DNA of 39,665 bases, from positions 1-39,665 of the forward strand of contig JAQVGD010000007.1 in the NCBI GenBank assembly GCA_028696945.1, in the 5' to 3' direction. Shown one piece after another: positions 10,567-38,511 of this stretch. The first letter of the stretch is position 1; every line of letters starts with the position of its first letter. This DNA comes from Lutibacter sp. (GTDB lineage Bacteria > Bacteroidota > Bacteroidia > Flavobacteriales > Flavobacteriaceae). The notes under the pieces were generated by a model. The model saw only the letters and a program-made list of their open reading frames with translations. It was not told the DNA's origin and searched no databases. The position numbers and the translations under genes are program-made.

Positions 10567-10627
10567 AATTAAATTGATATAAAACAAAGATTTGGTTTAT
10601 ATAGTTGCTTAGGTTGAAAATAAAATG

Positions 10628-17661: not shown

Positions 17662-20600
17662 ATGAAAAACACAACTCACAATAAAGATTTGTTTCAAAAT
17701 ATTTTTGAAGCTTCTATTGAAGGCATTATAGCTGTTAATGAAGATGGGCGTATTTTAACTACAAATCCTGCGTGCGAACAACTATTTGGTTATGAATCTG
17801 GAGAATTGATAGGTAAAAATATTGAAATTCTTATTCCTGAAAAACTTAAGCACCAATATAAAATCTACATCAAAAAGCATATAATGCCTCCTAAAAGAGA
17901 AACTGATATTTGGGGGATTAAAAAAGATGGTAGCAAATTTAGTTTAAACATTGGTTTAAGTCCTACAGTAATTGATGGAAAAAATGCGACCATCGCTTTT
18001 TTTTGGGATGCCACCCAACAGAAAAATGATTTAAGAATCATTAAACAAACAAACGCAAAACTTATAGAAAGCAACCGAAAGTTTGATGCACTGATAAATA
18101 ACCTGAAAGGAATTGTGTACCGTTGTAAAAACAATAGGAATTACGAAATGGATTATATCAGCGAAGGCTGTTTGGAAATTACTGGCTATACTTCTGATGA
18201 TTTTATGAACCAAACCATAAACTTTGGAAACCTTATTTTGGCCGAAGAACGAGATTTTACTTGGAAAAGCACACAAAATACGTTAAAGCAGAAAAAACCA
18301 TATAGTGTTGAATATCGTATTAAATCTAAAAACGGAACCATAAAGTACGTCTGGGAAAAAGGCTCGGCAATTTACAACAATCAAGACGAAGTGGTAATGT
18401 TAGAAGGTTTTATAGCTGATATAACACCACAAAAAGAAACTGAATTGGAATTGCGCAGTAGCGAAGCAAAAATAAAAGCCTTATTGGAAGCCAATCCGGA
18501 TATAATGCTTATTCAGGATTGTAAAGGCGTGTATCTTGATTGGTATGCCAACAGTCCCGAAAAATTACCTATGCCACCAGAAAAATTTATTGGTGTGACT
18601 ATGGAAAAAATATTACATCCTGAGGTGTATCAAAAAATAAAAACGTCGCACAACAAGGTAATCGAATCTGGAAAAATGCAGATTGCAGAATATAGCGTTC
18701 AAGGTAAAAACGGTCAGGAACATTATGAAGCCCGCGTGGTTCTTATGGACGACCACAGCCTTTTAACCATTGTTCGTAACGTTACCCAAGAAAGAACTAA
18801 AGACACTTTACTTACCATACAAAACAACGCCCTAGCCTCTGCCAGTAATGGCATCGTGATTGCAGATGCACAACAACCACATAAACCTATTATTTATTGC
18901 AATGCTGCTTTTGAAAAAATGACAGGCTATTCTCAAAAAGAAGTATTGGGAAGAAACAGCCGATTTCTACAAAATGATGATCGGGATCAAAAGGAAATTG
19001 GCATCATAAAAAATGCCTTTATCAAGGGAGAAACTTGTAAAGTAACAATACGTAATTATAGAAAAGATGGCACCATGTTCTGGAACAACGTTACCATAAA
19101 CCCTGTGCATAATGAGGAAAATATACTAACGCATTTTATAGGTGTGCAAAACGATGTTACGAACAAAGTAAAGGAAGAAAAATTCAAGGATCAAACTAGA
19201 GAAATACTGGAGTTAATAGTCCAAAACAAACAATTAAAAACCATTGGCTATAAGATTGTGGAAACCCTCGAGACCCATTTTAAGGATTGTGTGGCTTCCA
19301 TTTTATTGTTGGACACTGAGCATAAAACACTTCACAAATTGGTAGCACCAAACTTACCAGAATCTTTTATCGAATATATTGAGGGCGTTACAATTGGATC
19401 AAAATTGGGTTCTTGTGGTACAGCTGCCTTTTTAAGAAAAGAAATTATTGTATCCAATATCTCAACCAATATCCTTTGGGAAGATTATAAGGAAATAGGC
19501 TTAAAAAGCGGCTTTAAAGCTTGCTGGTCATTTCCTATAATGTCATCTACCAATCAAGTGCTCGGTACAATTGCAATATATAGTATGTTAGCTAGAAAAC
19601 CTTTAGCAGAAGAAAAAAAGATCCTTCTAGATATGACCCATTTGATAAGTATTGCGATAGAAAATCACAACAATTCCATCACTATACAAGAAAATAGACT
19701 TGAACTTGAAAAGTATGCTCAAAACCTAGAAAAAAAAGTTCAAGAGCGTACACAGGAGGTAATGTCAACCGTACAAAAACTGGTAGAATCCAATTTAAAT
19801 CTCGAAGACCAAATACTCATAACCAAATTAGCAGAAGGCGAAGCTATTACTAGTAAAAGTATTGCATCAGAAATTGCCAAAAACTTCCCTAACGGTTTTG
19901 TTGCCGTAATGAACAAAGATTCAAAGATACTGTTTGCTGAAGGTGATGCTTTAACACAGTTAGGGTTAAAACAGATTTTTTATGAAGGAATAACCGTTGA
20001 TGATATTCCTCTTTTTTCTGAAACACAAAAAGCACTAATTAAGGAAAATATTACAAAAACACTTGCTGGGCAGCATCACTCTTTTGAAGTTAATTATCAA
20101 GGCAGGTACTTCGCTGTAAACACAGCCCCTTTGGTTGATGAAAATAATAAAATAAGCAATGCATTGCACGTTTATAGCGATATTTCTCAACAAAAAGAAG
20201 TTGAATTTGCTATACAGAATGCCTTAATAAAAGAACGGGAATTAAACGAACTTAAATCACGCTTTGTATCTATGGCATCGCATGAGTTTAGAACCCCTTT
20301 GAGTGCCATACTCACTTCAGCAATTTTAATTGGCAAGCAAAACGGACAGGGGAAAGAGCAAAAAAGAGAGAAATATGTAACTCAAATTGAAAAGAATGTA
20401 AATAATCTTGTTGTTATTCTTAATGACTTTCTCTCATTAAGCAAACTGGAAGAGGGAAAAGTAGTGGCAATACCAAAGCGGTTCGATTTGATTTCATTTT
20501 TTAAAATATTGGTCGAAGAAAGCAATATAGGCTTAAAAAAGAATCAAACTATAAGTATAAATAGTCCAAATGAAGAACTCTTTGTGCATTTAGATGTAAA

Positions 20601-20928
20601 ATTACTAAAGCATATAATTAACAATCTTTTGTCCAATGCATCAAAATATTCGCCAGAAGCATCGAGCATATATCTTAAAATATTGCAAAATCAAGAAAAT
20701 GTGGTCATTCAAATTACAGATCAAGGCATAGGCATTCCAGAGGAAGAACAAAAGTACTTGTTTGCTCGTTTTTTTAGGGCAAAAAATGCCGCCAATATCG
20801 AAGGCACCGGCTTGGGTTTAAATATTGTAAAACAATATACAACGTTAATGGGCGGAACTATTGAGTTTAAAAGTGGTATAAACAAAGGCACAACCTTTTC
20901 TGTTGAGCTTCCAATACATAAGGAATGA
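17662..20928 (+). CDS. Multi-PAS/GAF sensor histidine kinase with LOV-like domain
   Basis: 1088 residues, no membrane segment, so cytosolic. Rough order: PAS (9-120), PAS (140-262), PAS (268-385), LOV-like PAS (390-510), GAF (515-685), coiled coil (690-745), PAS-like (755-870), HisKA (870-940) and HATPase (985-1086). The phosphoacceptor is His874 in FVSMASHEFRTPLSA. The ATPase has the N box NNLLSNASKYSP, G1 DQGIGIP and G2 GTGLGLNIV. The LOV-like domain has GRNSRFLQ, NYRKDG, FWNN and FIGVQNDV, so the flavin-contacting Asn/Asn/Gln set is kept but the photoactive Cys is Ser433. A redox or gas signal is therefore likelier than blue light (inference). Its stop overlaps the regulator start by ATGA, so the two form a translationally coupled pair. 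Confidence 0.92.
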   Translation: MKNTTHNKDLFQNIFEASIEGIIAVNEDGRILTTNPACEQLFGYESGELIGKNIEILIPEKLKHQYKIYIKKHIMPPKRETDIWGIKKDGSKFSLNIGLSPTVIDGKNATIAFFWDATQQKNDLRIIKQTNAKLIESNRKFDALINNLKGIVYRCKNNRNYEMDYISEGCLEITGYTSDDFMNQTINFGNLILAEERDFTWKSTQNTLKQKKPYSVEYRIKSKNGTIKYVWEKGSAIYNNQDEVVMLEGFIADITPQKETELELRSSEAKIKALLEANPDIMLIQDCKGVYLDWYANSPEKLPMPPEKFIGVTMEKILHPEVYQKIKTSHNKVIESGKMQIAEYSVQGKNGQEHYEARVVLMDDHSLLTIVRNVTQERTKDTLLTIQNNALASASNGIVIADAQQPHKPIIYCNAAFEKMTGYSQKEVLGRNSRFLQNDDRDQKEIGIIKNAFIKGETCKVTIRNYRKDGTMFWNNVTINPVHNEENILTHFIGVQNDVTNKVKEEKFKDQTREILELIVQNKQLKTIGYKIVETLETHFKDCVASILLLDTEHKTLHKLVAPNLPESFIEYIEGVTIGSKLGSCGTAAFLRKEIIVSNISTNILWEDYKEIGLKSGFKACWSFPIMSSTNQVLGTIAIYSMLARKPLAEEKKILLDMTHLISIAIENHNNSITIQENRLELEKYAQNLEKKVQERTQEVMSTVQKLVESNLNLEDQILITKLAEGEAITSKSIASEIAKNFPNGFVAVMNKDSKILFAEGDALTQLGLKQIFYEGITVDDIPLFSETQKALIKENITKTLAGQHHSFEVNYQGRYFAVNTAPLVDENNKISNALHVYSDISQQKEVEFAIQNALIKERELNELKSRFVSMASHEFRTPLSAILTSAILIGKQNGQGKEQKREKYVTQIEKNVNNLVVILNDFLSLSKLEEGKVVAIPKRFDLISFFKILVEESNIGLKKNQTISINSPNEELFVHLDVKLLKHIINNLLSNASKYSPEASSIYLKILQNQENVVIQITDQGIGIPEEEQKYLFARFFRAKNAANIEGTGLGLNIVKQYTTLMGGTIEFKSGINKGTTFSVELPIHKE

Positions 20929-21995
20929 AAAAAGTACTATTAATAGAAGATAATGAAGACGTTCGCGAAAATACAGCAGATATTTTAAAACTGGCGGGTT
21001 ATAGTGTTGCCACAGCCGAAAATGGAAAAATAGGTGTTAAAATTGCAGAACAATTACTTCCAGACGTTATTGTATGTGATATTATGATGCCAGAACTAGA
21101 TGGTTTTGAAGTCCTTCGGATTTTGGACAAGAACACTAAAACAGCGAGTATTCCATTTATATTCCTGACAGCCAAAACAGAAAAAATAGATATGCGAAAA
21201 GGAATGAATTTAGGCGCAGATGATTATTTGACCAAACCCTTTAGCGAAAACGAATTGTTAGATGCAATAAACAGTCGCTTAAAAAAATACGATTTCTTAA
21301 AAAAAGAATTTTCACATACTATTGAAGGTATTTCCAAATTTATTGAAGAAGCTTCTGCATATCTGGATTTAGAGCACTTGTCAAAAAAATTTACTCCAAA
21401 AGTATATAAAAAGAAAGACTTGGTTTTTATGGAAGGTAGTACAGCAAATTCTTTATATTTTATTGAAAGTGGCGTAATAAAAACGTATAAAACCAGCGAA
21501 AAAGGTAAAGAATTTGTAACAGGCTTGTTTGGTTCGGGAGACTTTATAGGACAATTATCCTTATTAACAGACCAAAGAACCTATATTGAATCTGCTGCCA
21601 TACTTAAAGATGCAACCCTATATGAAATACCACAATTAGATTTTATAACACTTATTTACAGCAATAAAGACGTGTCTAATAAGTTTGTAAGTTTAATTTC
21701 TAATAATTTGGTTGAAGTACAAGAAAAATTAGTAAACATGGCGTATGCCTCAGTGCGCCAACGTGTAGCAAAAGCATTACTGGACTTATACAAAAAAAGA
21801 ATTTTAATAAATGAAGAAAATGATGGCATTAGCATCGCCAGAGAAGATTTTGCAGGAATTGTTGGTACTGCAACAGAAACATCTATACGTATGCTAACTG
21901 TATTTAAGGAGGAAGGTTTAATTACTATTGGATCAAGTGGAAAAATTGTAATCCAAAATAAAAAAGCGATGGAAGATATTGTAATTTTCAATTAA
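20925..21995 (+). CDS. Response regulator with receiver, cNMP-binding and CRP/FNR HTH domains
   Basis: 356 residues. Receiver domain at 1-120 with acidic pocket ED9, phosphoacceptor Asp52 (VCDIMMPELDG) and Lys in LTKPF. A helical linker (120-150) leads to a CRP-type effector fold (about 150-265; LVFMEGSTANSLYFIESGVIKTY) and a winged HTH (about 270-345) whose recognition segment is TATETSIRMLTVFKEEGLI. CRP's DNA-contacting RE..R is here TE..xR, FNR-like, which suits a TGAC half-site. No N-terminal cysteines for an FeS cluster are seen, so phosphorylation by the adjacent kinase is the likely input. It is the best candidate to bind the TGACCTWGGTCA sites in this island. The last codon borders a MITE-like insertion. 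Confidence 0.9.
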   Translation: MKKVLLIEDNEDVRENTADILKLAGYSVATAENGKIGVKIAEQLLPDVIVCDIMMPELDGFEVLRILDKNTKTASIPFIFLTAKTEKIDMRKGMNLGADDYLTKPFSENELLDAINSRLKKYDFLKKEFSHTIEGISKFIEEASAYLDLEHLSKKFTPKVYKKKDLVFMEGSTANSLYFIESGVIKTYKTSEKGKEFVTGLFGSGDFIGQLSLLTDQRTYIESAAILKDATLYEIPQLDFITLIYSNKDVSNKFVSLISNNLVEVQEKLVNMAYASVRQRVAKALLDLYKKRILINEENDGISIAREDFAGIVGTATETSIRMLTVFKEEGLITIGSSGKIVIQNKKAMEDIVIFN

Positions 21996-22344: not shown

Positions 22345-22845
22345 ATGATTTCAGAAAATTATAATACAAAACAAAAACAAATTTGCATTAAAGCATACCA
22401 ACATTTATGGGAACTAGAGGAGACTTTGCAATTTATTGAGAATAAAAAAGAGTTGCATCTTCAAATTTCAATTCTCGGAAAAGTAAATCAATTTAATTCA
22501 GACAAAGAAAATAGCATTATAAATAAAAACAAAAATATAAAAGCACATTGGAAAAGCCTTTTTGGAGATCGTGTTAATTTTGGTAGTTTTAACAATCCTG
22601 AAATTGGAACTGTTTTTATTGTTGGATTTTTATCTTCAATATTTCTTCATAAGATAAACGGAAAACCTCTGGCAATGTTATCATCTGGTATTTATGGTAT
22701 TTTAAGAGGATTGGGTGTTAGTGAAGCACAAACTACCATCTATTTAAAAATGCTAAATTGTGGCAGTTATTTACTGGTTTTTAGAGGTTCTAAAAACGAC
22801 CTAGGTATTATCACAAAGGTTCTAGAAGAAAAAGAGAATGGATAA
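22345..22845 (+). CDS. Small stress-type protein (weakly DUF1269-like)
   Basis: 166 residues. The C-terminal half, with a glycine- and hydrophobic-rich stretch (IGTVFIVGFLSSIFLHKINGKPLAMLSSGIYG) followed by LRGLGVSEAQTTIYLKMLNCGSYLLVFRG, recalls DUF1269-type general stress proteins, where a glycine-zipper hydrophobic part precedes GIP..EA..Y...LK.G..LL.V. The similarity is by pattern and may be wrong. The N-terminus (1-80) is polar and helical. It is preceded by a degenerate operator/promoter of the local regulon, and its stop lies six bases from the stop of the convergent protease gene, so the two transcripts overlap at their 3' ends. Confidence 0.5.
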   Translation: MISENYNTKQKQICIKAYQHLWELEETLQFIENKKELHLQISILGKVNQFNSDKENSIINKNKNIKAHWKSLFGDRVNFGSFNNPEIGTVFIVGFLSSIFLHKINGKPLAMLSSGIYGILRGLGVSEAQTTIYLKMLNCGSYLLVFRGSKNDLGIITKVLEEKENG

Positions 22846-23877: not shown

Positions 23878-24004
23878 TTTTATTTAGTTTAATGGGTTTA
23901 GAATATGTCTTAAAACAGAAACGGAAAGCCTTGGCTTCCCATTTCCTAATAAGACGATTAATTTTATTGATACATCTGTTTAATTAAATTATAAAATTCT
24001 ATTT

Positions 24005-24037
24005 CTAAAATACTATAATAAATCAAACTTTGGCAAA
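24005..24037 (-). promoter_or_regulatory. Possible promoter of the HtrA-like gene
   Basis: Read on the minus strand, TTTG, then 21 bases, then TATTTTAG (one mismatch to TANNTTTG). The spacing suits a Bacteroidota housekeeping promoter. It lies about 130 bp upstream of the start codon. Confidence 0.35.
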
Positions 24038-24365
24038 ATTAATTTTAATCGTTTCCTATTGGTTAAACACGCCTTACAGCAGATACGACCAATGCTTTAT
24101 TATATTTTTTTAAAGGAAACGGAGAGATCTAAATTTCTCGGCTTCTTTTTTAAGGTATTAAATTTATCTCATTACCACTTACTGCTATTCTGCATTGCTC
24201 TATCGCTAGGCCAATGTAAAAAAATACAAAGATTGTGAAATACTTTTTATACCTTCAAGATTTTCATTGTATTGCCACTTTGAAAATCTATATTTATTCT
24301 GTTATCAAAGAACGATCTAGTTTTTTATTGTAAACTAAATTACGTGATTTTTGAAACTTGAGGAA

Positions 24366-24377
24366 TGACCTAGGTCA
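24366..24377. promoter_or_regulatory. Operator TGACCTAGGTCA, copy (a)
   Basis: A perfect 12-bp palindrome identical to the site before the SDR gene. At 29.5 bp on the minus-strand side lies TAATTTAG (one mismatch to TANNTTTG); on the plus side lies TAGCATTT (two mismatches). It could serve the HtrA-like gene (start about 490 bp away), the CMD gene (about 400 bp away), or both. Confidence 0.6.
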
Positions 24378-25688: not shown

Positions 25689-26576
25689 CTAATAGCTCTT
25701 TTTTTTCAATGCCTCAAACCCTGCAATCACATCAAAAAGTTCCTCATCAATAGTGCTTTGTCTTAAACGGTTATAAACCAGATTCAATTCATCGAGCATC
25801 TCCTCTATATTTTTTTCTGCACGCTCCATGGCTTCCAGCCTGCTTGCGTTTTCGGCGGCCAAAGATTCCGCACTGGCTTTGTACAAGGAAACAAAAAGAT
25901 ATTCCCTAATCAGCATCCGCAAAGTACTTTCAACACCTCCAATTATCTGAGGAACATTATGTGTTGGCCATTCCATTTTCTTTATGTCGCCTTCCCATTT
26001 CTCATCAGGCGGAAACAATTGTTGACTTTCTTGTCGATAATTTGCTCCCTGTGATGGTGTGTTGTGAAAAATATAAAAACTATAAAACTGGTCTCTTATT
26101 CGGTATTCTTCACTCTTAATTAAAATCTCATTTACCAAAGGAGTAATCGCAGTAACCGAATTGGGAACACTAAAACGTTTGGTAGGTGGAAAATCGCCAT
26201 CCACCAGCAGGGAATAAACTCTTTCGCCAACTGTCCAGATTTCTGCTTGTCCAGGAATCTCTTTTATTATTTTTTGGGCATAAGAGCTTATTGAATCGTT
26301 AAACCTTCCCACCAATCCTTGGTCTGAACCAAAGATAACAGCCACGGATATTGAATTTTTCCTATCGCGATTATCGGCTAAAACTGAAATATTTTCCTTT
26401 CTAAAACAGGCGTGTATCCCAAGGGAGATGGTGCGGTAATAATCTTGTAAAGAATGTACTGCCATTTCGTATTGGTTAATATTGGAAGTTGCCATAGCCT
26501 TCATGGTTTTTACCACCGATGCCATATCACCCGCACTTTGTTTCCTTCTTTGTAAATTTATCAAAGTGTCACTCAT
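25689..26576 (-). CDS. atpG: N-ATPase gamma subunit
   Basis: 295 residues, the usual gamma length. The N-terminal helix (LQRRKQSAGDMASVVKTMKAMATSNINQYE) and the C-terminal helix (ENASRLEAMERAEKNIEEMLDELNLVYNRLRQSTIDEELFDVIAGFEAL) form the coiled-coil shaft that turns in the alpha3beta3 head, with a Rossmann-like middle (SVAVIFGSDQGLVGRFND). It couples ion flow to ATP chemistry. It is the last gene of the operon and overlaps the atpA stop by eight bases. Sequence is far from canonical F-type gamma, as in other N-ATPases. Confidence 0.9.
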   Translation of the reverse strand: MSDTLINLQRRKQSAGDMASVVKTMKAMATSNINQYEMAVHSLQDYYRTISLGIHACFRKENISVLADNRDRKNSISVAVIFGSDQGLVGRFNDSISSYAQKIIKEIPGQAEIWTVGERVYSLLVDGDFPPTKRFSVPNSVTAITPLVNEILIKSEEYRIRDQFYSFYIFHNTPSQGANYRQESQQLFPPDEKWEGDIKKMEWPTHNVPQIIGGVESTLRMLIREYLFVSLYKASAESLAAENASRLEAMERAEKNIEEMLDELNLVYNRLRQSTIDEELFDVIAGFEALKKKSY

Positions 26577-28107
26577 CGCTATCGAGTTTAAGGATATTTG
26601 TAATTGCTTCTTTTGCCAACATCACAAGAATAGCTTCATCAACTTCGTTCAAAGACTCTGAGGAATAAATCCGTTGTAACACCTCATCGGGTAATTGGTA
26701 ATATTTTTTCTGAATTAAAGCTTCTGCCTTTGTTATTTTATCGAGTGGTACAGCGTCAAAAACACCATTTATAAGTGCATGTAATACCAATAGTTGCTCT
26801 GGCACTGAAACTGGCTTCATTTCTGGCTGTTTGAAAATCATGCGTATTCTTTTCCCACGCTCAATCATTTTTTTTGTATCCTGATCGAGTCTGGTACCAA
26901 ATCGCGCAAATGTTTCCAGTTCCTCAGATTGTGCATAAGCAAGTTTTAGATTTCCAGAAATTTTTCTATAAGCTCTTAATTGTGCCTTCCCTCCTACTCG
27001 AGAAACGGATTTTCCAATATCTACGGCCGGAAGTAAACCCAATTCGAACAATTTTGGCGACAGATATATTTGCCCATCGGTAATTGATATTAAGTTTGTG
27101 GGAATATATGCCGAAATATCTTGTGCTTGTGTTTCAATAATGGGCAAAGCGGTCAAGGAACCGCCACCATTCTCTTCATTTAAATGAGTCGCTCTTTCCA
27201 AAAGTCTAGAATGGATGTAAAAAATATCTCCAGGAAATGCTTCCCTGCCTGGTGGTCTGCGCAATAAAAGTGAAAGTTCCCGATAGGCGCGTGCGTGCTT
27301 GGTCAGGTCGTCATAAACAATCAACACATCGCGTCCCTGCTCCATAAAATATTCTGCGATACTTGTAGCTGCATAAGGCGTCAAATATTGAAGACCAGGG
27401 GAACTATTACCTTCCGTAACCACAACGATTGTATATTCCATAGCACCCTTTTCTGTAAGTTCGGAAATCACTTTGGCAACTGCTGCCGTACGCTGTCCGA
27501 TAGCACAGTAAACACACAGCACATTTTTATCGTGTTGATTGAGAATGGTGTCAATAGCAATAGAAGTTTTTCCTGTTTGGCGGTCACCTAATATCAATTC
27601 TCGTTGGCCTCGACCAATAGGAATGATCGCATCGATCACCTTAATCCCCGTTTGTAATGGCGCATTCACAGCCTCACGGCTCATAATAGGTGGTGCAGGC
27701 CTTTCAATAGGATTCCGTTGTTGAAACGAAATTGGACCTTTATCGTCCATTGGATTTCCGAGAGAATCAATAACCCTGCCGATGAGATTCTCGCCTACTG
27801 GAATATCAGCGACACGATGGGTTCTTAAAACGGTATCGCCAGCTTGAAGTTGATCGTTTCTACCCAAAAGAACAACGCCTATTTCATCTTTATCCAAGTT
27901 AAAAGCCATTCCGAATAAATTATTGGGAAACTCCAATAACTCTTCAAAACCTGTTCCAGGCAAACCAGTTACTGTGGCAGTACCAGCAGAAATATTTTTT
28001 ACGACTCCCATTTCGCGAAATTGAATATTGGAATCATAATTTTTCCTGCTATGGCTTATCTCAAGGAATGTATCATCTATTATTTGGGTTAAATCAGTCG
28101 ATTGCAT
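26569..28107 (-). CDS. atpA: N-ATPase alpha subunit
   Basis: About 512 residues from MQSTDLTQIIDDTFLEIS. The track's start 33 codons earlier lies inside the preceding gene and adds a non-homologous tail. The nucleotide-binding Walker A site is GDRQTGKTS. ITDGQIYLSPKLFELGLLPAVDIGKSVSRVGG is a standard alpha segment. The subunit forms the non-catalytic sites of the head. Its start overlaps the end of atpF by 14 bases, indicating translational coupling. Confidence 0.93.
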   Translation of the reverse strand: MQSTDLTQIIDDTFLEISHSRKNYDSNIQFREMGVVKNISAGTATVTGLPGTGFEELLEFPNNLFGMAFNLDKDEIGVVLLGRNDQLQAGDTVLRTHRVADIPVGENLIGRVIDSLGNPMDDKGPISFQQRNPIERPAPPIMSREAVNAPLQTGIKVIDAIIPIGRGQRELILGDRQTGKTSIAIDTILNQHDKNVLCVYCAIGQRTAAVAKVISELTEKGAMEYTIVVVTEGNSSPGLQYLTPYAATSIAEYFMEQGRDVLIVYDDLTKHARAYRELSLLLRRPPGREAFPGDIFYIHSRLLERATHLNEENGGGSLTALPIIETQAQDISAYIPTNLISITDGQIYLSPKLFELGLLPAVDIGKSVSRVGGKAQLRAYRKISGNLKLAYAQSEELETFARFGTRLDQDTKKMIERGKRIRMIFKQPEMKPVSVPEQLLVLHALINGVFDAVPLDKITKAEALIQKKYYQLPDEVLQRIYSSESLNEVDEAILVMLAKEAITNILKLDSDE

Positions 28108-28861
28108 TTTCTTTCTTTTTTGTGATACTATCCTTTTTAAATGAATCGAGATAGGATTCAATATTCCAAGACAATTGGTAGCTTGGCGTTTTAATCTCAA
28201 TTCCACTAACTAATCCAGGTTCTAGTAGGTATTGAAAATCATTCGGATTTTCGGTGATTTTCTCAATCGCTTTTTCAAGTTCTTGTTTTGAAGTCGCCGA
28301 TAATTCAAAAACACTTTTAATGCTAATAGGGACGTACTTATTATTAAGGGCAGCTATAAATTTTGATTTATCCATCTTGTCTAAATTCTTGATTTTTTCT
28401 ATAAAAACTTTTATAACCTGTTCCTCAAGATTGGCATTGGCAAGATCGGAAAGTGTTTTGCTGGCAATGGCAAAAACCGCTTCCTTTGTTTTGAGTTTAA
28501 GCGAATCCATTATTTCTAGTTCTTGCTGCTTAAATGAATCTTCAAATTTTGAGCGTAGTTCAGTCGATTCCTTTCTCACTTCTTCCAACAGACGTTGCTT
28601 TTCTGAATCGATCTGCTCATAAACTTCATTCATTTTTACCGAACGTTCCTTATCAAAAACCTCATTTTTTTGACGATACAGATCTTGATCTTTTTTAGCC
28701 TCTGCCTTAGTCATCGCAGCATCCTCAAGTTGTGAGGCAATCTTTCTTTCCCTTTCATCAATAGCCTTCAATACCGGCTTGTACAAAAACCGTTTTAAAA
28801 GCCAAACCAGAATAAGAAAGTTGACTATTTGCGCTATTACTGTAAACCAGTTGATTTCCAT
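28094..28861 (-). CDS. atpF: N-ATPase b subunit with extended C-terminus
   Basis: 255 residues. An N-terminal membrane helix (WFTVIAQIVNFLILVWLLKRFL) is followed by the conserved YKPVLKAIDERERKI and a long charged coiled coil (about 35-150). The C-terminal 100 residues continue beyond an ordinary b subunit and end EPGLVSGIEIKTPSYQLSWNIESYLDSF, resembling the delta subunit end (LIGGIVI...). N-ATPase operons lack a separate atpH, and their b subunits are extended in this way, so this protein probably serves as both stator stalk and delta-like cap. Confidence 0.88.
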   Translation of the reverse strand: MEINWFTVIAQIVNFLILVWLLKRFLYKPVLKAIDERERKIASQLEDAAMTKAEAKKDQDLYRQKNEVFDKERSVKMNEVYEQIDSEKQRLLEEVRKESTELRSKFEDSFKQQELEIMDSLKLKTKEAVFAIASKTLSDLANANLEEQVIKVFIEKIKNLDKMDKSKFIAALNNKYVPISIKSVFELSATSKQELEKAIEKITENPNDFQYLLEPGLVSGIEIKTPSYQLSWNIESYLDSFKKDSITKKKENAID

Positions 28862-28873
28862 TTTAAGAGTTTA

Positions 28874-29140
28874 TTACGCTAAAAAATGATTCCAGAACGG
28901 ATTCGCAAAAATGAGAATCATCGAAAGCACAAAGCAATAGATGGCTGTTGATTCAATCATTGCCAAGCCCACAAATAATGTTCTGGTAATGGTTGTTGCT
29001 GCATCAGGTTGTTGTGCAATAGATTCCAATGCCTTTGAAACTGCCTTTCCCTCGCCTATTGCAGGCATCATACTGCCAATACCAGTTGTAAATCCTGCAG
29101 TAATTATTGATGCTACTGCGATAATAGTTATGTTGTCCAT
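28874..29140 (-). CDS. atpE: N-ATPase c subunit, probable Na+ rotor
   Basis: 88 residues, two membrane helices joined by a polar loop (AQQPDA). Helix 1 has P26-A-I-G-E30 where Na+-type rotors have PxxxQ, and helix 2 has E63-S-T-x-x-Y68, the Na+-coordinating ESTxxY pattern. Two carboxylates (Glu30 and Glu63) per site match the two-carboxylate type described for some Na+-coupled ATPases. Na+ specificity is therefore likely but not proven. It is followed by atpF after 12 bases. Confidence 0.93.
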   Translation of the reverse strand: MDNITIIAVASIITAGFTTGIGSMMPAIGEGKAVSKALESIAQQPDAATTITRTLFVGLAMIESTAIYCFVLSMILIFANPFWNHFLA

Positions 29141-29254
29141 ATTCCTAATTTTAGATTTTAGATTTTAAATTTCAGCCTTTAAACCTTATGATTTATATTT
29201 TAAAATTCTTGTTTTTCTGTTCCTTCTTTCGGCGGGCAAACTCGGTTCTTTCGC

Positions 29255-29941
29255 CTACCGTCTTTGTTTTATTCTCTCGGTATCTTGTGTTGCGGCAGCT
29301 ATATATACAGTCGCCAAAATTGCAAAAATATATGCCTGTATCATTCCCGTAAGCAATCCCAAAGCACTCATAATCATTGGAAAGAAAAATGGAACTATAG
29401 AAATCAAAACGGTAGCAATCAATCCGCCACTCATAATATTTCCAAACAATCTAACCGCCAATGCAAGGGTTCGTGAAAGCTCACTGATAATATTAAAGGG
29501 CAACATGATGAAATTAGGTTGCAAATAAGAACGCAAATAGCCCTTAAGTCCGCCCTCGACAATTCCAAAAAAAGGCACCGCAATAAATACGGATATCGCC
29601 AAAGCCGTTGTGGTAGAAAGAGATGCTGTAGGCGCTTCATACCAAGGCACAATTGTCAATAAATTTGAAACTGCTATAAAAATGAACAGCGTCCCGATAA
29701 AGCCTATATATTTTTCTGGTTTGTTCAATCCCACTTCCTTAATTTGGTCGCGGATTGAAAGTACCAGCATCTCCAAAACATTTTGCCAACGGGAAGTCTT
29801 GATATCTGATTTTAAATTTCGCGTAATAAGCCAAGCACCAAACGCAAGCAAAATCATCAATATCCATGTGGTAACGATAGTGAGATTTATACTAATAAAC
29901 CCATACTCCCAAAAAATCATTTGATCAGGACTAATTCTCAT
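29255..29941 (-). CDS. atpB: N-ATPase a subunit
   Basis: 228 residues, short as in N-ATPases, with five or six membrane helices. The essential stator arginine lies in SRTLALAVRLFGNIMSGG, where it faces the rotor carboxylate; the final helix IQAYIFAILATVYIAAATQ is also characteristic. It forms the ion half-channels with the c ring. The gene starts 11 bases inside atpR. A 114-bp gap separates it from atpE, the only sizeable gap in the operon; it carries three near-tandem ATTTTAG/A units. Confidence 0.92.
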   Translation of the reverse strand: MRISPDQMIFWEYGFISINLTIVTTWILMILLAFGAWLITRNLKSDIKTSRWQNVLEMLVLSIRDQIKEVGLNKPEKYIGFIGTLFIFIAVSNLLTIVPWYEAPTASLSTTTALAISVFIAVPFFGIVEGGLKGYLRSYLQPNFIMLPFNIISELSRTLALAVRLFGNIMSGGLIATVLISIVPFFFPMIMSALGLLTGMIQAYIFAILATVYIAAATQDTERIKQRR

Positions 29942-30257
29942 CGCTTACTTCTTTTATGAATACGTTCTTTGCCTGCTTGTCCATTTTAGTAATTCGGGTA
30001 ATTACAATTCTCGCAATTAAAAAACCTAATAGGCAAGCAAGCATTTTTTGCCAATTGTCCCCACCAACATAATAAAATCCGATTACAACAATCGCCATTC
30101 TTATAACCAAACTCCCCATGAATATCAAAGTCGATCTTTTTGAGCCCAATCCTTTACGAACGGTAAGCCAAAGACCTCCAAAAAATATAATTCCTAATAC
30201 AATCCCGACAAATACAGCCGGTAGTAGGTTTAATACTTCATTTATTTCCATCTTCAT
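29931..30257 (-). CDS. atpR: N-ATPase accessory membrane protein AtpR
   Basis: 108 residues with three membrane helices: LLPAVFVGIVLGIIFFGGLWL, then LIFMGSLVIRMAIVVIGFYYV, then MLACLLGFLIARIVITRI. Arginines lie within the helices (SLVIRM and IARIVITR), as typical of AtpR, which is found only in N-ATPase operons and is thought to contact the c subunit. Its start overlaps atpQ; a second Met two codons in is equally possible. Confidence 0.85.
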   Translation of the reverse strand: MKMEINEVLNLLPAVFVGIVLGIIFFGGLWLTVRKGLGSKRSTLIFMGSLVIRMAIVVIGFYYVGGDNWQKMLACLLGFLIARIVITRITKMDKQAKNVFIKEVSDEN

Positions 30258-30561
30258 TCTTTTTATGAATTTCCTTATTTTCTTTTTGGATCCAGTTCCA
30301 CGCTATCAAACAACCTAGCATCAATCCTGCGACCAAGAGACTTAGCGTCCAAGAGAATTCTTCTTTATATTTTTTATCGAGCCAAACACCCAATGCCGCA
30401 CCCAATAAAGTGGGTACTGCGATAGACCAGCCTATCATCCCAAATAATCCCAATCCAGCCCACACGCTTTTTTTTTCACGTTGTGCCTGCAATTTTCTTT
30501 CTTCCTTGTCGCCGACTACTTTCTCAAAAGAGTTGTCATTATTTAGTTTTTCCTCTTTCAC
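30238..30561 (-). CDS. atpQ: N-ATPase accessory protein AtpQ (AtpI-like)
   Basis: 107 residues with a charged N-terminus (about 1-30) and two membrane helices (AGLGLFGMIGWSIAVPTLLGAALGVWLD, then WTLSLLVAGLMLGCLIAWNWI). The GxxxxxPxxxGxxxGxxLD pattern is that of the AtpI/AtpZ family, which in related ATPases helps assemble the c ring or import Mg2+. Position between atpC and atpR is diagnostic of the N-ATPase order. Confidence 0.85.
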   Translation of the reverse strand: MKEEKLNNDNSFEKVVGDKEERKLQAQREKKSVWAGLGLFGMIGWSIAVPTLLGAALGVWLDKKYKEEFSWTLSLLVAGLMLGCLIAWNWIQKENKEIHKKNEDGNK

Positions 30562-30563
30562 TA

Positions 30564-30965
30564 TTATTTTCTTAATTTTTGAAAATTGCGCAGAAAGCCT
30601 GTTTCCAACTTTGCCATAACACTACGGGCATTTATTTCCAATTCATCCAATTGCATCATTTCCTGTTCCACTACAGCGCGAAGTTTTCCAAGTGGTGCAT
30701 CCCCCATCGCATTCCGCACAGATATTAATACCTCGCTACCTGCCTTTATTATGATTCCATCGTCCAATGCAATATATTTTACACCGTCGTTTTCTGTTTC
30801 ATACTCTAAAATTCCAGGCAACAAAGCTGCTGAGCAATCGAGTCTTCGTGGTAAAATTCCATACGAGCCAGCGGTTGTTTCCACGACAATTCTTTTAACG
30901 CTCTTTATGTCCACAAAAACTTTGTAGGGCAATAAGATTTTAAGATGCATTAATGTATTTTCCAT
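30564..30965 (-). CDS. atpC: N-ATPase epsilon subunit
   Basis: 133 residues. The N-terminal beta-sandwich (MHLKILLPYKVFVDIKSVKRIVVETTAGSYGILPRRLDCSAALLPGILEY) is typical of epsilon subunits, including the GILPRH-like motif. The C-terminal helical part is short. It links gamma to the c ring and may regulate ATP hydrolysis. Three bases separate it from atpD and two from atpQ. Confidence 0.9.
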   Translation of the reverse strand: MENTLMHLKILLPYKVFVDIKSVKRIVVETTAGSYGILPRRLDCSAALLPGILEYETENDGVKYIALDDGIIIKAGSEVLISVRNAMGDAPLGKLRAVVEQEMMQLDELEINARSVMAKLETGFLRNFQKLRK

Positions 30966-30968
30966 TGT

Positions 30969-32405
<1,437 letters not shown>

Positions 32406-32488
32406 TTACTTTGCAATTTTTAAAGGCATCGCATTGCCATTTGCTTTAAAGTATCCTTTTATGTTACGCATCCATATATTACTAAACG

Positions 32489-32496
32489 TAAATATA
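32489..32496 (-). promoter_or_regulatory. -7 element for the N-ATPase operon
   Basis: On the minus strand TATATTTA (one mismatch to TANNTTTG) begins exactly 29.5 bp from the centre of the shared operator, mirroring the ftsH promoter. It would give a leader of roughly 110 bases before atpD. Confidence 0.55.
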
Positions 32497-32519
32497 TCAA
32501 GTTTTAAATACATTGTAAA

Positions 32520-32531
32520 TGACCTTGGTCA
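32520..32531. promoter_or_regulatory. Operator TGACCTTGGTCA, shared by atpD and ftsH
   Basis: A palindrome in the divergent atpD/ftsH region. Promoter elements lie at equal distance on both sides, which would centre the operator near -41.5 for each start site, the usual place for CRP/FNR-type activation from an overlapping site. The regulator is inferred to be the receiver-CRP/FNR protein encoded at 20925. Confidence 0.75.
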
Positions 32532-32554
32532 TTTCACAAAGTTGCATCAATCGG

Positions 32555-32562
32555 TAATTTTG
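32555..32562 (+). promoter_or_regulatory. -7 element for ftsH
   Basis: TAATTTTG is a perfect TANNTTTG, 29.5 bp from the operator centre. There is no clear -33 TTTG; the operator takes its place. Confidence 0.65.
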
Positions 32563-32579
32563 TCTTTATTGCCACAAAT

Positions 32580-32708
32580 ATGGGATATGTAAAAACAAGA
32601 CGTTTCGCACCGATAACAAAGGATTCCGTTGCCCTACTGGAATACGGTCTGATAGGGAGTTTAAAAACTTCCTCGTTACAAATTGGTACAAGTTTTTTAA
32701 TGGTTTAA
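32580..32708 (+). CDS. Possible 42-residue leader ORF before ftsH
   Basis: An ATG frame beginning about 13 bases after the inferred transcription start reads MGYVKTRRFAPITKDSVALL and continues EYGLIGSLKTSSLQIGTSFLMV, ending 15 bases before the ftsH GTG. It has a basic N-terminus and a hydrophobic C-terminus. The EYGLI string is seen in Flp-type pilins, but the rest does not match and it is probably chance. It may be a leader peptide or simply untranslated leader. Confidence 0.3.
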   Translation: MGYVKTRRFAPITKDSVALLEYGLIGSLKTSSLQIGTSFLMV

Positions 32709-32723
32709 TAAAAAATAGATAAA

Positions 32724-34640
32724 GTGACCGCAAACAAAAATAATACTAAAGACAAGAAGCCTAAACCGTTTAATCCTTATTGGTTATATGGATTTCTTTT
32801 ATCTCTTTTCATAATTACCTTCTTTCTCAACCCCATTTCCAATACAAAGGAAATTAGCATGTTACAATTTGAGCAGAATATGTTGAGTCAGGGTGATGTT
32901 GAAAAAATTATAGTTGTAAATAAGGAAACTGCAGAAATTTACATAAAACCCAACCGGCTTACAGACGAGAAATATAAAGATGCCGTTAAAAACATCGCGG
33001 AAACAAGTCCCCAATATATTATAAAAATTGGCTCTGTTGAAAGTTTTGAAAACAAACTGGAAAAAGCCCAGGAACATTTTGCGCCAAATGAAAAAGTTGG
33101 GGTTCAGTATGAAGATCGTTTCAATTGGATTAACAGTTTTTCATGGCTTTTGCCTTTATTGATTATCGTAATTTTCTGGCTATTTATGTTACGCAGAATG
33201 GGAACAGGCGGAATGGGCGGTTCAATGATGAATTTTGGGAAGTCAACTGCAAAACTGGCAAACATAGACACCAAAAGCAAGGTAACATTTGAGGATGTGG
33301 CTGGATTAAAAGAAGCTAAGGTTGAGATAATGGAGCTAGTGGATTTTCTGAAAAACCCTGAGGAATATACAAAACTCGGAGCAAAAATACCTAAAGGAAT
33401 ATTACTGACAGGACCACCTGGTACTGGCAAGACACTATTGGCCAAAGCAGTTGCTGGGGAGGCGCAAGTTCCATTCTATTCTATGTCGGGATCAGAATTT
33501 GTGGAAATGTTCGTTGGCGTTGGTGCTTCACGGGTCAGGGATTTATTTAAGCAAGCAAAGGCAAAAGCTCCTAGTATTATTTTTATCGATGAAATAGATG
33601 CCGTGGGGCGTAGCCGTGATCAAGCAAAATCATTTCAATCCAATGACGAAAGAGAAAACACCTTAAACCAATTGTTGGCTGAATTGGACGGCTTTGGCGT
33701 CAATACAGGTGTCATAGTACTGGCGGCAACTAACCGAGTAGATATATTGGATAAAGCTCTGTTAAGAGCAGGCAGATTCGACCGACATATATATTTGGAA
33801 TTGCCGACGAAAACAGAAAGGAAAGAAATCTTTAATGTGCACCTAAAACCCATAAAAATAGACAAAACGGTAGATGTTGAATTGTTGGCCTCCCTAACGC
33901 CTGGTTTCTCGGGAGCAGACATTGCCAATATTTGTAATGAAGCAGCATTGTTAGCTGCACGCAAAAAAAAGAAAGTTGTAAGCCAGATTGATTTTACGCA
34001 AGCTCGGGATCGTGTTGTGGGCGGCTTAGAAAGAAGTAGTAAGATTATTTCACCCAAAGAAAAAATAATTGTCGCACATCACGAAGCTGGACATGCGGTT
34101 GCGAGCTGGCATTTAGAACACGTTGATTCCTTGGTAAAAGTGTCCATCATCCCAAGAGGAAAATCATTAGGCGCAGCATGGTATCTACCTGTAGAACGTC
34201 AAATTATAACCAAATCGCAATTTATGGATCAAATATGTGCATTGTTAGGTGGTCGTGCGGCTGAAGAAATCATATTTGATGAAATATCCTCAGGAGCTCT
34301 CGACGACTTGGAAAAAGTAACCAAACAAGCCTATAATATGGTGGCTTATTACGGCATGGATGAAAATATTGGTCCTCTTAGTTTTTATGATTCCTCTGGA
34401 CAATATCAAAGCATGTTAGGAAAACCCTATAGCGAAGAAATGGGTAAACTAATTGACAAGGAAGTACATAATCTTATTACCACACAATATGAAAGAGCAA
34501 AAAATATTTTGACCAAACACAAAGATGAACTCGAAAAATTGGCACAGCTTTTACTTGATAAAGAGATAGCTGATAAAGAGGATTTAGAACATATTTTAGG
34601 GAAAAGGAAAGCAAAAAAATTATTGAAACTAGAAAAATAA
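32724..34640 (+). CDS. ftsH: FtsH-type ATP-dependent zinc metalloprotease
   Basis: 638 residues, normal length, starting at GTG. Two membrane helices (about 17-36 and 135-156) flank a periplasmic domain. The AAA+ module has Walker A GPPGTGKT, Walker [12 protein letters not shown] and the second region of homology [21 protein letters not shown]. The peptidase has zinc motif [12 protein letters not shown], with a later Asp ligand region ([15 protein letters not shown]). FtsH extracts and degrades damaged membrane proteins. Divergent from the ATPase operon and sharing its operator, it is likely a second, stress-inducible copy beside the housekeeping ftsH; that the genome has another is inference. 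The P-ATPase gene follows after 88 bp. Confidence 0.94.
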
Positions 34641-34660
34641 ACTGGTTCGAAAACTGTGAG

Positions 34661-34677
34661 GCACAAATAAATTGTGC
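34661..34677. repeat. Hairpin between ftsH and mgtA
   Basis: GCACAA-ATAAA-TTGTGC, a perfect 6-bp stem without a T-run. It could stabilise or process a common mRNA rather than end it. Confidence 0.45.
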
Positions 34678-34728
34678 GAATAGATAAAAGAAACTTACAT
34701 TAAACAGACATAGTAATCAAAGTTTACA

Positions 34729-37422
34729 ATGACCAGAACCCGTAAAAAACAAAGCAAATCACCACATCCTACCGAAATGAATACAGCGGCTGTAAGCAAG
34801 TTGCAAACTGCATCTCAAGGGGATGCTCATTCAGTATATACTTTGATGGAAAGTTCCAAAGAAGGAATTTCACAAGCCACGGCCGAGGAACGAATTACAA
34901 AATTTGGTTTAAATGAAGTGGCGCACGAGAAAGCACCTTCTTGGTTCAAACAATTAGTAAAATCGTTTGTCAATCCGTTTATATTCATCCTCTTAGCCAT
35001 TGCTATAATTTCTTTTATGATTGATGTGTGGTGGGCTACTTCTGGTGAAAAAGACTTTAAAACGGTAATCGTTGTGGGTGCAATGATTATTATTAGTGGC
35101 CTTCTCAGCTTTTTTCAGGAATACCGAAGTAATCGAGCGGCGGAACAGTTGAAGAGCATGGTAAAAAATACTGCTGCAGTACTGCGAAAAGACCTTGGTA
35201 GAAACGAAATACCCATGTCGTACATAGTTCCTGGTGATGTGGTTTATTTAGCAGCTGGCGACATGATACCAGCGGATTGTCGCATCGTGGAAAGCATCGA
35301 TTTATTTATAAGTGAATCCATGCTTACTGGTGAATCCTTGCCGGTAGAAAAAACGTCATCGGCAATTGAGGATTCAAATAACAAAAGACCTCTTGCCCTT
35401 GCCAATCTCTGCTTTATGGGCACTAATGTGATAAGCGGAGCGGCAACTGCAGTAGTAATTTCAACTGGTAACAACACCTATTTTGGCAACATCGGTAAAA
35501 GTATTGTCGGTAAAAGTCCCGAAACCAGTTTTGATATAGGAATCAATAAAGTGAGCGTACTGCTTATCCGCTTTATGTTAGTAATGGTTCCCATTATCTT
35601 TCTGATAAATGGTTTGGTAAAAGGAGATTGGATGGAAGCACTGCTCTTTTCTATTGCGGTAGCTGTGGGCCTGACACCCGAAATGTTACCAGTGATAGTT
35701 ACCGCCAACCTTGCCAAAGGTGCCATGAGCATGAGCAAGCACAAGGTAATTGTAAAACGGTTAAATGCCATTCAGAACCTCGGGGCAATGGATATGCTTT
35801 GTACTGACAAAACAGGCACGCTTACCTTGGATAAAATTGTTTTGGAACAGCACTTAAATGTTTTTGGAGCAGAAGATGATGAAGTTTTAAAATGGGCCTA
35901 TTTAAACAGCTTCCACCAAACAGGATTGGCAAACTTAATGGATAAAGCTGTTTTAGACCACGTAGAACTAAAGGATTATTTAAAAGTAGAAAAGGATTTT
36001 GAAAAGATAGATGAAATTCCATTTGATTTTCAGCGTAGAAGAATGAGCGTCATTCTAAAACAAAAGAATGGAAAACATCTGCTCATCGCCAAAGGTGCCG
36101 TAGAAGAAATGCTAGATCTCTGCACCCATAGTTTTAATCCAGGAGAAGATCGTCAATTGCATATTGAGCTAGATGAAATAGTGCGAATGGATGAAGCTAT
36201 GCGAAAAAATGTTTTAGAAACCTCTGTAGCCTTAAACGAAAAAGGATTGCGTATTCTATTGCTCGCCATTCGTGAGTTTGATGGAGATCATCCATTAAAC
36301 TATGGCGTTACAGACGAAAGCAACCTAATATTCACTGGATTTATTGGGTTTCTTGATCCTGCAAAACCATCGGCAAAACCGAGTATTGAAGCCTTGCATA
36401 AATTACATGTAGAAGTAAAGGTGTTGACAGGTGATAATGAAACGGTAACTAAAAAGATTTGCAAGGATGTTGGTATCCCCATTCAAAACATCATGTTGGG
36501 AGATGAGTTGGCTTTGATTTCGGATGAGGAACTCACTGCTCGGGTAGATGATATTTCAATATTTGCCAAAATGAGTCCTTTACAAAAAGTGAGAGTGGTA
36601 CAATCGCTAAGAGCAAAAGGACATACCGTTGGAGTTTTAGGTGATGGCATTAATGATGCTGCTGCTTTAAAAGAAGCGGATGTAGGAATTACGGTAGATA
36701 ATGCCGTGGATATTGCAAAAGAAAGTTCAGATATTATTCTTTTGGAAAAAGATTTAATGGTGCTAAAGGAAGGGGTGCTTTATGGTCGTAGAACCTTTGG
36801 AAATATCATCAAATACATAAAAATGGCCACCAGTAGTAATTTCGGGAATGTGTTCAGTATTCTTGGAGCAAGTGCGTTTTTACCCTTTCTTCCCATGTTG
36901 CCCATTCAGCTTTTGGTGCAAAACCTGTTATACGACATCTCCCAAACATCAATTCCTTGGGATAAAATGGATGAAGATTATTTGGAGACCCCAAAAAAAT
37001 GGGAACCAGAAGGCATTCGTAGGTTTATGATTTACATTGGTCCAACCAGCTCCATTTTTGATTATGCCATGTTTGCGATTATGTTCTTTGTGTTTAAAGC
37101 AAATAGTCCTGAGCATCAAAGCCTATTTCAAACAGGTTGGTTTGTGCTAGGTCTGCTTTCCCAAACATTGATCGTGCACATGATTCGTACAAAAAAAATA
37201 CCGTTTATCCAAAGCTGGGCCTCTGCGCCTGTGGTAGCACTTACCTCTTTGGTTATGGTAATCGGAATTATCATTCCCTTCACTCCTATAGCAGATATGC
37301 TATATATGGAGCCGCTGCCACTGGCTTATTTCCCTTGGTTGATTGGCATTTTGGTTGCATATAGTTTTCTCATACATTTCGTTAAAAATTGGTATATCAG
37401 AAAGTTTAGCAGTTGGTTGTAA
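34729..37422 (+). CDS. mgtA: Mg2+-transporting P-type ATPase, MgtA type
   Basis: 897 residues, the full length of P3B ATPases. The actuator has the LTGES loop (SMLTGESLPVEK), helix M4 is VGLTPEMLPVIVTANLAKGAMSM, the phosphorylated aspartate is in CTDKTGTLT, the nucleotide domain has KGAVEEML, and the hinge is VGVLGDGINDAAALKEAD. The MgtA-specific segment SSNFGNVFSILGASAFLPFLPMLPIQLLVQNLLYD is present. It imports Mg2+ driven by ATP. No operator of its own is visible, and it probably shares the ftsH transcript. Mg2+ supply would support ATPase and ribosome function under stress (inference). Confidence 0.93.
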   Translation: MTRTRKKQSKSPHPTEMNTAAVSKLQTASQGDAHSVYTLMESSKEGISQATAEERITKFGLNEVAHEKAPSWFKQLVKSFVNPFIFILLAIAIISFMIDVWWATSGEKDFKTVIVVGAMIIISGLLSFFQEYRSNRAAEQLKSMVKNTAAVLRKDLGRNEIPMSYIVPGDVVYLAAGDMIPADCRIVESIDLFISESMLTGESLPVEKTSSAIEDSNNKRPLALANLCFMGTNVISGAATAVVISTGNNTYFGNIGKSIVGKSPETSFDIGINKVSVLLIRFMLVMVPIIFLINGLVKGDWMEALLFSIAVAVGLTPEMLPVIVTANLAKGAMSMSKHKVIVKRLNAIQNLGAMDMLCTDKTGTLTLDKIVLEQHLNVFGAEDDEVLKWAYLNSFHQTGLANLMDKAVLDHVELKDYLKVEKDFEKIDEIPFDFQRRRMSVILKQKNGKHLLIAKGAVEEMLDLCTHSFNPGEDRQLHIELDEIVRMDEAMRKNVLETSVALNEKGLRILLLAIREFDGDHPLNYGVTDESNLIFTGFIGFLDPAKPSAKPSIEALHKLHVEVKVLTGDNETVTKKICKDVGIPIQNIMLGDELALISDEELTARVDDISIFAKMSPLQKVRVVQSLRAKGHTVGVLGDGINDAAALKEADVGITVDNAVDIAKESSDIILLEKDLMVLKEGVLYGRRTFGNIIKYIKMATSSNFGNVFSILGASAFLPFLPMLPIQLLVQNLLYDISQTSIPWDKMDEDYLETPKKWEPEGIRRFMIYIGPTSSIFDYAMFAIMFFVFKANSPEHQSLFQTGWFVLGLLSQTLIVHMIRTKKIPFIQSWASAPVVALTSLVMVIGIIIPFTPIADMLYMEPLPLAYFPWLIGILVAYSFLIHFVKNWYIRKFSSWL

Positions 37423-37464
37423 CCTTGTTATTGGGAGTGAATTCAGGTACTAAAAATTACAAAT

Positions 37465-37492
37465 GGAATTATAAAGAATGTTCTATAATTCC
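37465..37492. terminator. Hairpin after the P-type ATPase gene
   Basis: GGAATTATA and TATAATTCC are perfect 9-bp arms around a 10-nt loop, 43 bases after the stop codon. The following bases are only partly T-rich, so it is a weak terminator or mRNA-end structure. Confidence 0.45.
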
Positions 37493-37622
37493 TTCGAATA
37501 AGTGCTAAATCTTTTAGGAAACTTATATGTAAAATGTTATCGGCTTATCAATTATACTGCTTTATTCAATACTATTAAACTAAATACCAATTTTCAATCC
37601 TAACAAATATACTTTCACTCAT

Positions 37623-37634
37623 TGACCTAGGTCA
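37623..37634. promoter_or_regulatory. Operator TGACCTAGGTCA before the SDR gene
   Basis: A perfect palindrome, and with its flanks (TTGACCTAGGTCAT) the closest to the FNR/DNR pattern TTGAC-N4-GTCAA. Like the atpD/ftsH site it is followed by TTTCA. There is no matching element on the minus side, so it is one-directional. Confidence 0.75.
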
Positions 37635-37657
37635 TTTCATTAGACTCCTTAACCAAT

Positions 37658-37665
37658 TAACTTTG
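37658..37665 (+). promoter_or_regulatory. -7 element of the SDR gene
   Basis: TAACTTTG is a perfect TANNTTTG at exactly 29.5 bp from the operator centre, giving a leader of about 80 bases. Confidence 0.65.
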
Positions 37666-37752
37666 TTTGAAAATAGACTGTAAATCATTCTAGTTTTATC
37701 ATTTGGAATGATGGAAGTACATATAATTAATTTAACATTAAAAATTAAAATC

Positions 37753-38511
37753 ATGAAGAGAGCAGAAAACAAAGTTGTTATCGTAACAGGCGGCTCATTG
37801 GGACTCGGTCGAGAAACAAGTCTTTTGTTAGCAAAACACGGAGCAAAAGTTGCAGTAGCCGATATTCTTGACAAAGAAGGTAAGGCATTGGTTGAAGAAA
37901 TAAAAAAGTCAGGGGGAAAGGCAAAATTCTGGCATCTTGATGTGACTAACGAAAAAGAAGTCGAAAAAGTTTATGCTGAAGTCGTTAAAGAATTTGGCAG
38001 ACTTGATGCAACCGTAAACAATGCAGGAATTGCAGGTGCAGACAAACCATCACACGAGGTAACCGAAAAAGAATGGGATCTTGTTATGAATATTAATGTA
38101 AAAGGAGTTTTCTTTTGCACCAAACATGCCGTGCCATATATGAAAAAATCAGGTGGCGGAAGTATTGTAAATATTTCTTCTATCTATGGAATCATCGGCG
38201 CAGCAGATTTACCACCATATCATGCTTCCAAAGGTGCTGTTAGAGTAATGTCGAAAACCGATGCAATACAATATGCAAAAGATAAGATTAGAGTGAACTC
38301 TGTGCATCCAGGGTTTATTTGGACACCTCTAGTGGAAGAGTTAGGCAAAGGCAATCCTGGATTCCGTAAGCATCTTGATAGTCTGCATCCAATAGGACAT
38401 ATTGGTGAAGCCATAGATATTGCTTATGGAATACTTTATCTAATATCAGACGAATCTAAATTTACTACTGGAAGTGAGTTGGTTATTGATGGTGGCTATA
38501 CTGCCATCTAG
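37753..38511 (+). CDS. Short-chain dehydrogenase/reductase
   Basis: About 252 residues from MKRAENKVVIVTGG; the track's start 15 codons earlier lies in the leader. Classical SDR fold with NAD(P)-binding TGGSLGLGRE, acidic D54-type position in VAVADILD that favours NAD(H), NNAG, and the catalytic Ser-Tyr-Lys in NISSIYG...YHASK. The C-terminal IDGGYTAI is typical. Closest in pattern to glucose 1-dehydrogenase or cyclopentanol dehydrogenase-type enzymes; the substrate cannot be fixed. Preceded by the strongest operator/promoter of the local regulon, so it should be induced with the ATPase and FtsH. No further gene follows in the operon. Confidence 0.9.
   Translation: MKRAENKVVIVTGGSLGLGRETSLLLAKHGAKVAVADILDKEGKALVEEIKKSGGKAKFWHLDVTNEKEVEKVYAEVVKEFGRLDATVNNAGIAGADKPSHEVTEKEWDLVMNINVKGVFFCTKHAVPYMKKSGGGSIVNISSIYGIIGAADLPPYHASKGAVRVMSKTDAIQYAKDKIRVNSVHPGFIWTPLVEELGKGNPGFRKHLDSLHPIGHIGEAIDIAYGILYLISDESKFTTGSELVIDGGYTAI

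Follow-up and report, generated by a model that had tools for sequence, protein, structure and literature searches.

Whether a single operator can switch on two operons that point away from each other is the question raised by a palindrome, TGACCTTGGTCA, in the gap between atpD (minus strand, probable ATG start at 32371) and ftsH (GTG start at 32724) of a Lutibacter sp. in the family Flavobacteriaceae. It lies on contig JAQVGD010000007.1 (assembly GCA_028696945.1), and the window referred to throughout is the whole stretch of DNA analysed, 39,665 nucleotides in length. According to the original prediction for this locus, one dimer bound at the palindrome co-activates nine ATPase genes on one side and ftsH, with mgtA, on the other, and keeps their ratio fixed.

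The palindrome between atpD and ftsH

The gene names in that prediction hold, as the ATPase subunit, FtsH and MgtA models all score above cut-off. The leftward genes have the order atpDCQRBEFAG and match nine alternate F1F0 family models (TIGR03305, 03166, 02230, 03165, 03306, 03322, 03321, 03324 and 03323), which identifies the operon as an N-type ATPase; to the right, mgtA starts 88 bp after ftsH, and no separate operator was found for it. G+C content is 0.36-0.40 in positions 26000-38000 of the window versus 0.25-0.35 in the rest of it, and this, together with the rarity of the N-ATPase in the order, hints that the block was acquired. Elsewhere in the window, the gene for HsdR, a type I restriction subunit (7696-10587, minus strand), is apparently split into two adjacent frames, with a break inside the SWI2/SNF2 domain; either the gene is broken or the assembly is wrong there.

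Features of the window discussed in the text (strand is given as a point for palindromes)
Feature	Position	Strand	Basis or remark
Histidine kinase, several PAS domains and GAF	17662..20928	+	Pfam, hydropathy
Candidate regulator: receiver - cNMP_binding - HTH_Crp_2 response regulator	20925..21995	+	Pfam
Third operator	24366..24377	.	TAATTTAG at 29.5 bp on minus strand
N-ATPase (alternate F1F0) operon atpD-C-Q-R-B-E-F-A-G, nine genes	25689..32396	-	NCBIfam models
-7 element TATATTTA, predicted atpD promoter	32489..32496	-	Matrix score 6.9; predicted start ~32484
TTT adjoining operator, part of -33 element, atpD side	32517..32519	-	Sequence; same promoter-side T rule
Shared operator TGACCTTGGTCA, predicted Crp-type activator site	32520..32531	.	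Centre 32525.5; sequence
TTT adjoining operator, part of -33 element, ftsH side	32532..32534	+	T conserved on promoter side (one-sided sites)
-7 element TAATTTTG, predicted ftsH promoter	32555..32562	+	Matrix score 13.2; predicted start ~32567
ftsH, membrane AAA+ metalloprotease	32724..34640	+	TIGR01241, 771 bits (cut-off 600)
mgtA, magnesium P-type ATPase	34729..37422	+	TIGR01524, 1224 bits (cut-off 611)
One-sided operator of SDR gene (37708-38511)	37623..37634	.	Sequence
SDR promoter element TAACTTTG	37658-37665	+	29.5 bp from operator centre

As had been claimed, -7 elements of the type TAnnTTTG are present on both strands, each starting exactly 29.5 bp from the centre of TGACCTTGGTCA. The minus-strand element, TATATTTA, is read from 32496 down to 32489, and the span 32489-32562 thus runs from the outer end of one element to the outer end of the other. 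In Flavobacterium psychrophilum the sigma-A box TAnnTTTG has been mapped at -12 to -5 (PMC9723704), and because the boxes here are taken to have the same position, the palindrome centre falls at -41.5 for both promoters, overlapping the -33 region of each, with predicted start sites that are 83 bp apart. This is the placement of a class II activator palindrome, repeated on both sides with starts predicted from box position, and the correctly placed promoter element on either flank of one operator is what would be expected of divergent control from a single site. No Rfam element was found at the operator, and a 42-codon open frame (32580-32708, plus strand) occupies most of the predicted ftsH leader.

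A fixed spacing and its two-sided cases

A pattern search of the whole genome (3.36 Mb) located five exact copies of TGACCNNGGTCA. Three lie in the window (P=1.6e-5 for such clustering), and none of the five lacks a -7-like element at 29.5 bp, on one side or both. One of them precedes the SDR gene, and the earlier statement that it lacks a partner on its other side was borne out: TAACTTTG stands at 29.5 bp on the gene side and GATTGAAA is found opposite.

The spacing was examined further in an unselected set of sites from relatives, fetched without reference to the -7 element as a guard against the ascertainment bias of searching with the composite pattern. In this set 28 of the 35 non-coding TGACCNNGGTCA sites had an element at the 29.5-bp offset on at least one side, versus at most two of the same 35 sites at any of 41 other offsets, and 1 of 19 palindromes in coding sequence (these counts use a TAnnTTTG score of at least 5/6, a cut-off set after the first sites were inspected). 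Searched for in 33 genomes, the composite pattern gave 20 matches and its reversed controls 0; across 398 genomes of the order, the corresponding counts were 24 and 2. The spacing is a promoter rule, not a coincidence, and the possibility of a chance palindrome was ruled out by the spacing statistics and the reversed controls. The half-sites of TGACCNNGGTCA have no conserved outer TT; in 34 one-sided sites, the three positions that flank the palindrome towards the promoter are T in 29, 28 and 25 cases, and those on the other side far less often. Operators of this kind recur around regulator orthologues, and upstream of stress genes, in the marine relatives Zobellia, Winogradskyella, Lacinutrix and Maribacter.

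Most operators of the family have an element on one side only, those between divergent genes included, and the flanking TTT tracks the promoter side, by which the symmetry of the palindrome was ruled out as the source of the second element, in agreement with what had been argued from the SDR site. Two-sided sites nevertheless exceed chance, four being seen in the unselected set where ~0.3 were expected (P=2e-4). The four highest-scoring second sides are all found between divergent genes (4/14 versus 0/25, P=0.012), a rough test in that gene distances were taken from an ORF-based gene call. Two-sided sites of the genome studied here also include one at a Usp gene (contig C218) and a degenerate one, TGATCTGGGTCA, at C232:2772-2783. 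A further two-sided site, between a YtxH-type operon and the gene of a protein related to the one encoded at 22345-22845 of the window, has been retained in two Zobellia-type genomes though many flanking bases differ; Zobellia uliginosa has a two-sided site at this gene pair.

The N-ATPase itself is rare, being present in 4 of the 398 genomes of the order, plus a Gelidibacter that was found via its regulator. In Gelidibacter two separate operators are found: one belongs to the ATPase operon, has one mismatch and has TATATTGG 29.5 bp away, and the other points to the divergent gene. Two Zobellia-type genomes have two operators ~30 bp apart before atpD, of which the ATPase-side one has TACTTTTA at the correct spacing and the second adjoins a divergent PEP-synthase-like gene with only a 4/6 element; in another N-ATPase genome (G363) no operator was found. 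Among these N-ATPase genomes an operator shared by ftsH and atpD was found in the present genome only and, as far as the sequences compared can tell, it belongs to this genome and is not conserved with the operon.

The candidate regulator and its predicted regulon

The likely owner of the palindrome is encoded nearby. The product of 20925-21995 combines PF00072, PF00027 and PF13545 in one protein, all above cut-off; its start overlaps the stop codon of the HisKA/HATPase kinase directly upstream, which has no strongly hydrophobic segment and is probably cytosolic. Its receiver residues E8, D9, D52, T82 and K104 are identical in the orthologue compared, and phosphotransfer from the kinase is predicted. 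An HcpR/FNR identity was ruled out by the receiver domain and by the TGACCNNGGTCA motif, regulators of that type having no receiver and an operator of the form TTGACnnnnGTCAA or TTGATnnnnATCAA. No description of a receiver-Crp regulator in Bacteroidota was found in the literature searched, which misses most subscription papers.

A close orthologue of the regulator is present in 2 of 38 genomes of the genus, this one and G023 (63% identity), and composite sites occur in both of these versus 1 of the 36 genomes that lack it (P=0.004). Two of the three sites in G023 are at most 17 kb from the regulator gene, and near regulator orthologues in other genera the palindrome was found 14 times versus a mean of 1.3 for permuted half-sites, the top count of all. 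The link between regulator and site is imperfect because one genome (G030) has a plausible composite site yet only a 45% regulator homologue, and Gelidibacter has a 71% homologue and no exact intergenic site. That the 20925-21995 product binds the palindrome is, on this co-occurrence, a strong inference. A paralogous kinase/receiver-Crp pair (44%) is encoded on contig C65 (L070) of the same genome (G000), where sites of the type TGATNNNNATCA-N23-TAnnTTTA are found at the same spacing instead; also close to this pair are tandem repeats with a hairpin similar to the 3' end of the non-coding RNA described below. The 166-aa protein encoded at 22345-22845 (plus strand), which matched nothing in Pfam or NCBIfam, has its gene near that of the receiver-Crp regulator in most of the relatives examined.

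The targets predicted in this genome are the N-ATPase operon, ftsH-mgtA, the SDR gene, the Usp gene (C218), a Dps-like gene (C208) and a probable non-coding RNA, and those in relatives are Hsp20, universal stress proteins, ferritin, YtxH-type proteins and a PEP-synthase-like gene (the Usp and Dps names, and the protein names in relatives other than BLAST matches to window proteins, were read from sequence by eye). Taken at the level of these predictions, the list is that of a general stress set. From the third operator, at 24366, a non-coding RNA of ~400 nt is probably transcribed, and the gene downstream of it (22852-23877, minus strand) encodes an HtrA-like protease. The predicted transcript (23905-24342, minus strand) ends in a terminator-like hairpin before that gene and had no Rfam match above threshold; Winogradskyella thalassocola (L081, 15000-16500, minus strand) has three tandem copies of it, each with an operator, a -7 element and a hairpin. 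The longest open frame is ~40 codons. This third palindrome, the nearby regulator, the TTT on both sides of the shared operator and the other two-sided sites of this genome had all been missed by the original prediction.

Mechanism, alternatives and the closest known systems

Our preferred reading, to which we assign a probability of about 0.77, is that the palindrome is the operator of the 20925-21995 regulator and that a bound dimer would open both the N-ATPase operon and ftsH-mgtA within a stress regulon. The adjacent kinase would phosphorylate the response regulator, a dimer of which would occupy the palindrome at -41.5 of two mirror-image sigma-A promoters, overlap the -33 element of each and recruit RNA polymerase on either side, such that a single binding event could open the N-ATPase operon leftward and ftsH-mgtA rightward. 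The same regulon would include the SDR, a universal stress protein, Dps and the probable small RNA. We infer binding, the regulator's identity and the stress signal, as well as the "one bound dimer" and "activation" of the earlier claim, the last two from the Crp type of the regulator and the -41.5 position; operator, elements, spacing, recurrence and co-occurrence are read directly from the DNA. Of the readings considered, co-activation from one operator has the best support, and as a prediction it is well supported by the geometry, the excess of two-sided sites, their divergent gene pairs and the conserved Zobellia-type site. The fixed ratio is not supported: the -7 scores are 13.2 versus 6.9, the predicted starts lie close together and relatives have separate operators. 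It does not follow from a shared operator, because the -7 elements differ and the tight space may make the polymerases compete; those on the two sides would probably alternate or compete, so that outputs rise together without a fixed ratio.

Were the palindrome used by the ftsH promoter only, TATATTTA would be a chance match and the ATPase operon would be driven elsewhere. The atpD-side element is the weaker one, matching 5/6 positions. The minus strand of the region has further 5/6 matches, among them one just 6 bp beyond TATATTTA, and the prevalence of one-sided operators at divergent pairs also favors this view. Yet the atpD-side element scores within the span of 5.1-13.2 that true promoter sides show when the window's own sites are left out of matrix training, and the random P of its score is ~0.001; TTT is present on the atpD side too, two-sided sites exceed chance, and the atp operons of three relatives have an operator of the same geometry pointing at atpD. 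We consider this one-promoter use of the palindrome unlikely.

It is about as doubtful, and perhaps a little more so, that the operator is bidirectional with another Crp/Fnr-type protein as its main activator. The 44% paralogue in the same genome, and a related TGACNNNNGTCA type of site found at the 29.5-bp spacing within the genus, would suit such an activator; against it, composite sites co-occur with close orthologues of the 20925-21995 regulator and cluster around its gene, and the same-geometry sites near the paralogue gene are TGATNNNNATCA. Overlap with the -33 region of both promoters would also suit a repressor or roadblock that holds both off. At CRP/FNR promoters, however, an invariant -41.5 centre is a hallmark of class II activation, and the position of repressor sites is usually variable; the reduction of the promoter-side -33 element to TTT is likewise as expected if an activator replaces it, and we regard repression as very improbable.

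Activation of both promoters by the neighbouring regulator would have several implications. The N-type ATPase, which is poorly understood, would gain a concrete regulatory setting in its predicted joint switch-on with a protease, a magnesium transporter, Usp and Dps; the promoter rule TGACCNNGGTCA-N23-TAnnTTTG lets the regulon be read from any Flavobacteriaceae genome; and the one-sided and two-sided sites form a natural set for how one dimer serves two polymerases. In general terms, we lean slightly toward the view that an apparently undescribed stress regulon of the Flavobacteriaceae is controlled by a two-component activator of the Crp type, acting at an invariant operator-N23-TAnnTTTG promoter, and that mirror-image class II promoters around a single dimer evolve in it repeatedly, letting gene pairs switch between one shared and two separate operators.

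Single-site control of divergent promoters is already known, and it is the regulator, operator and regulon that appear to be new within the literature searched. HcpR of delta-proteobacteria and cyanobacteria has TTGACnnnnGTCAA operators that resemble ours in being FNR-type palindromes with TGAC half-sites in equal register, without the two inner C/G pairs found here; HcpR, however, is not a response regulator, and it controls hcp and nitrogen-oxide genes (PMC1274295). For E. coli CRP, the passages seen of a review describe sites at which one palindrome controls promoters on both sides and make no statement of a mirrored -41.5 geometry; CRP responds to cAMP and has no receiver domain, whereas the candidate regulator has one (PMC4005916). 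Like class II CRP/FNR promoters, ours have a predicted activator centred at -41.5 and overlapping the upstream promoter element; they differ in being a Bacteroidota -33/-7 sigma-A type, with TGACCNNGGTCA as operator and two mirrored promoters. CtrA belongs to the OmpR type of regulators and not to the Crp type. In Rhodobacter sphaeroides, one CtrA site activates the divergent fliL2p and fliF2p promoters, as proven by mutagenesis and 5' RACE, and two separate sites serve a second gene pair of the regulon (PMC6180460). In the CtrA flagellar promoters a single response-regulator site serves two divergent promoters, as predicted here from sequence, and the same alternation, between one shared site and two separate ones, is found (PMC6180460).
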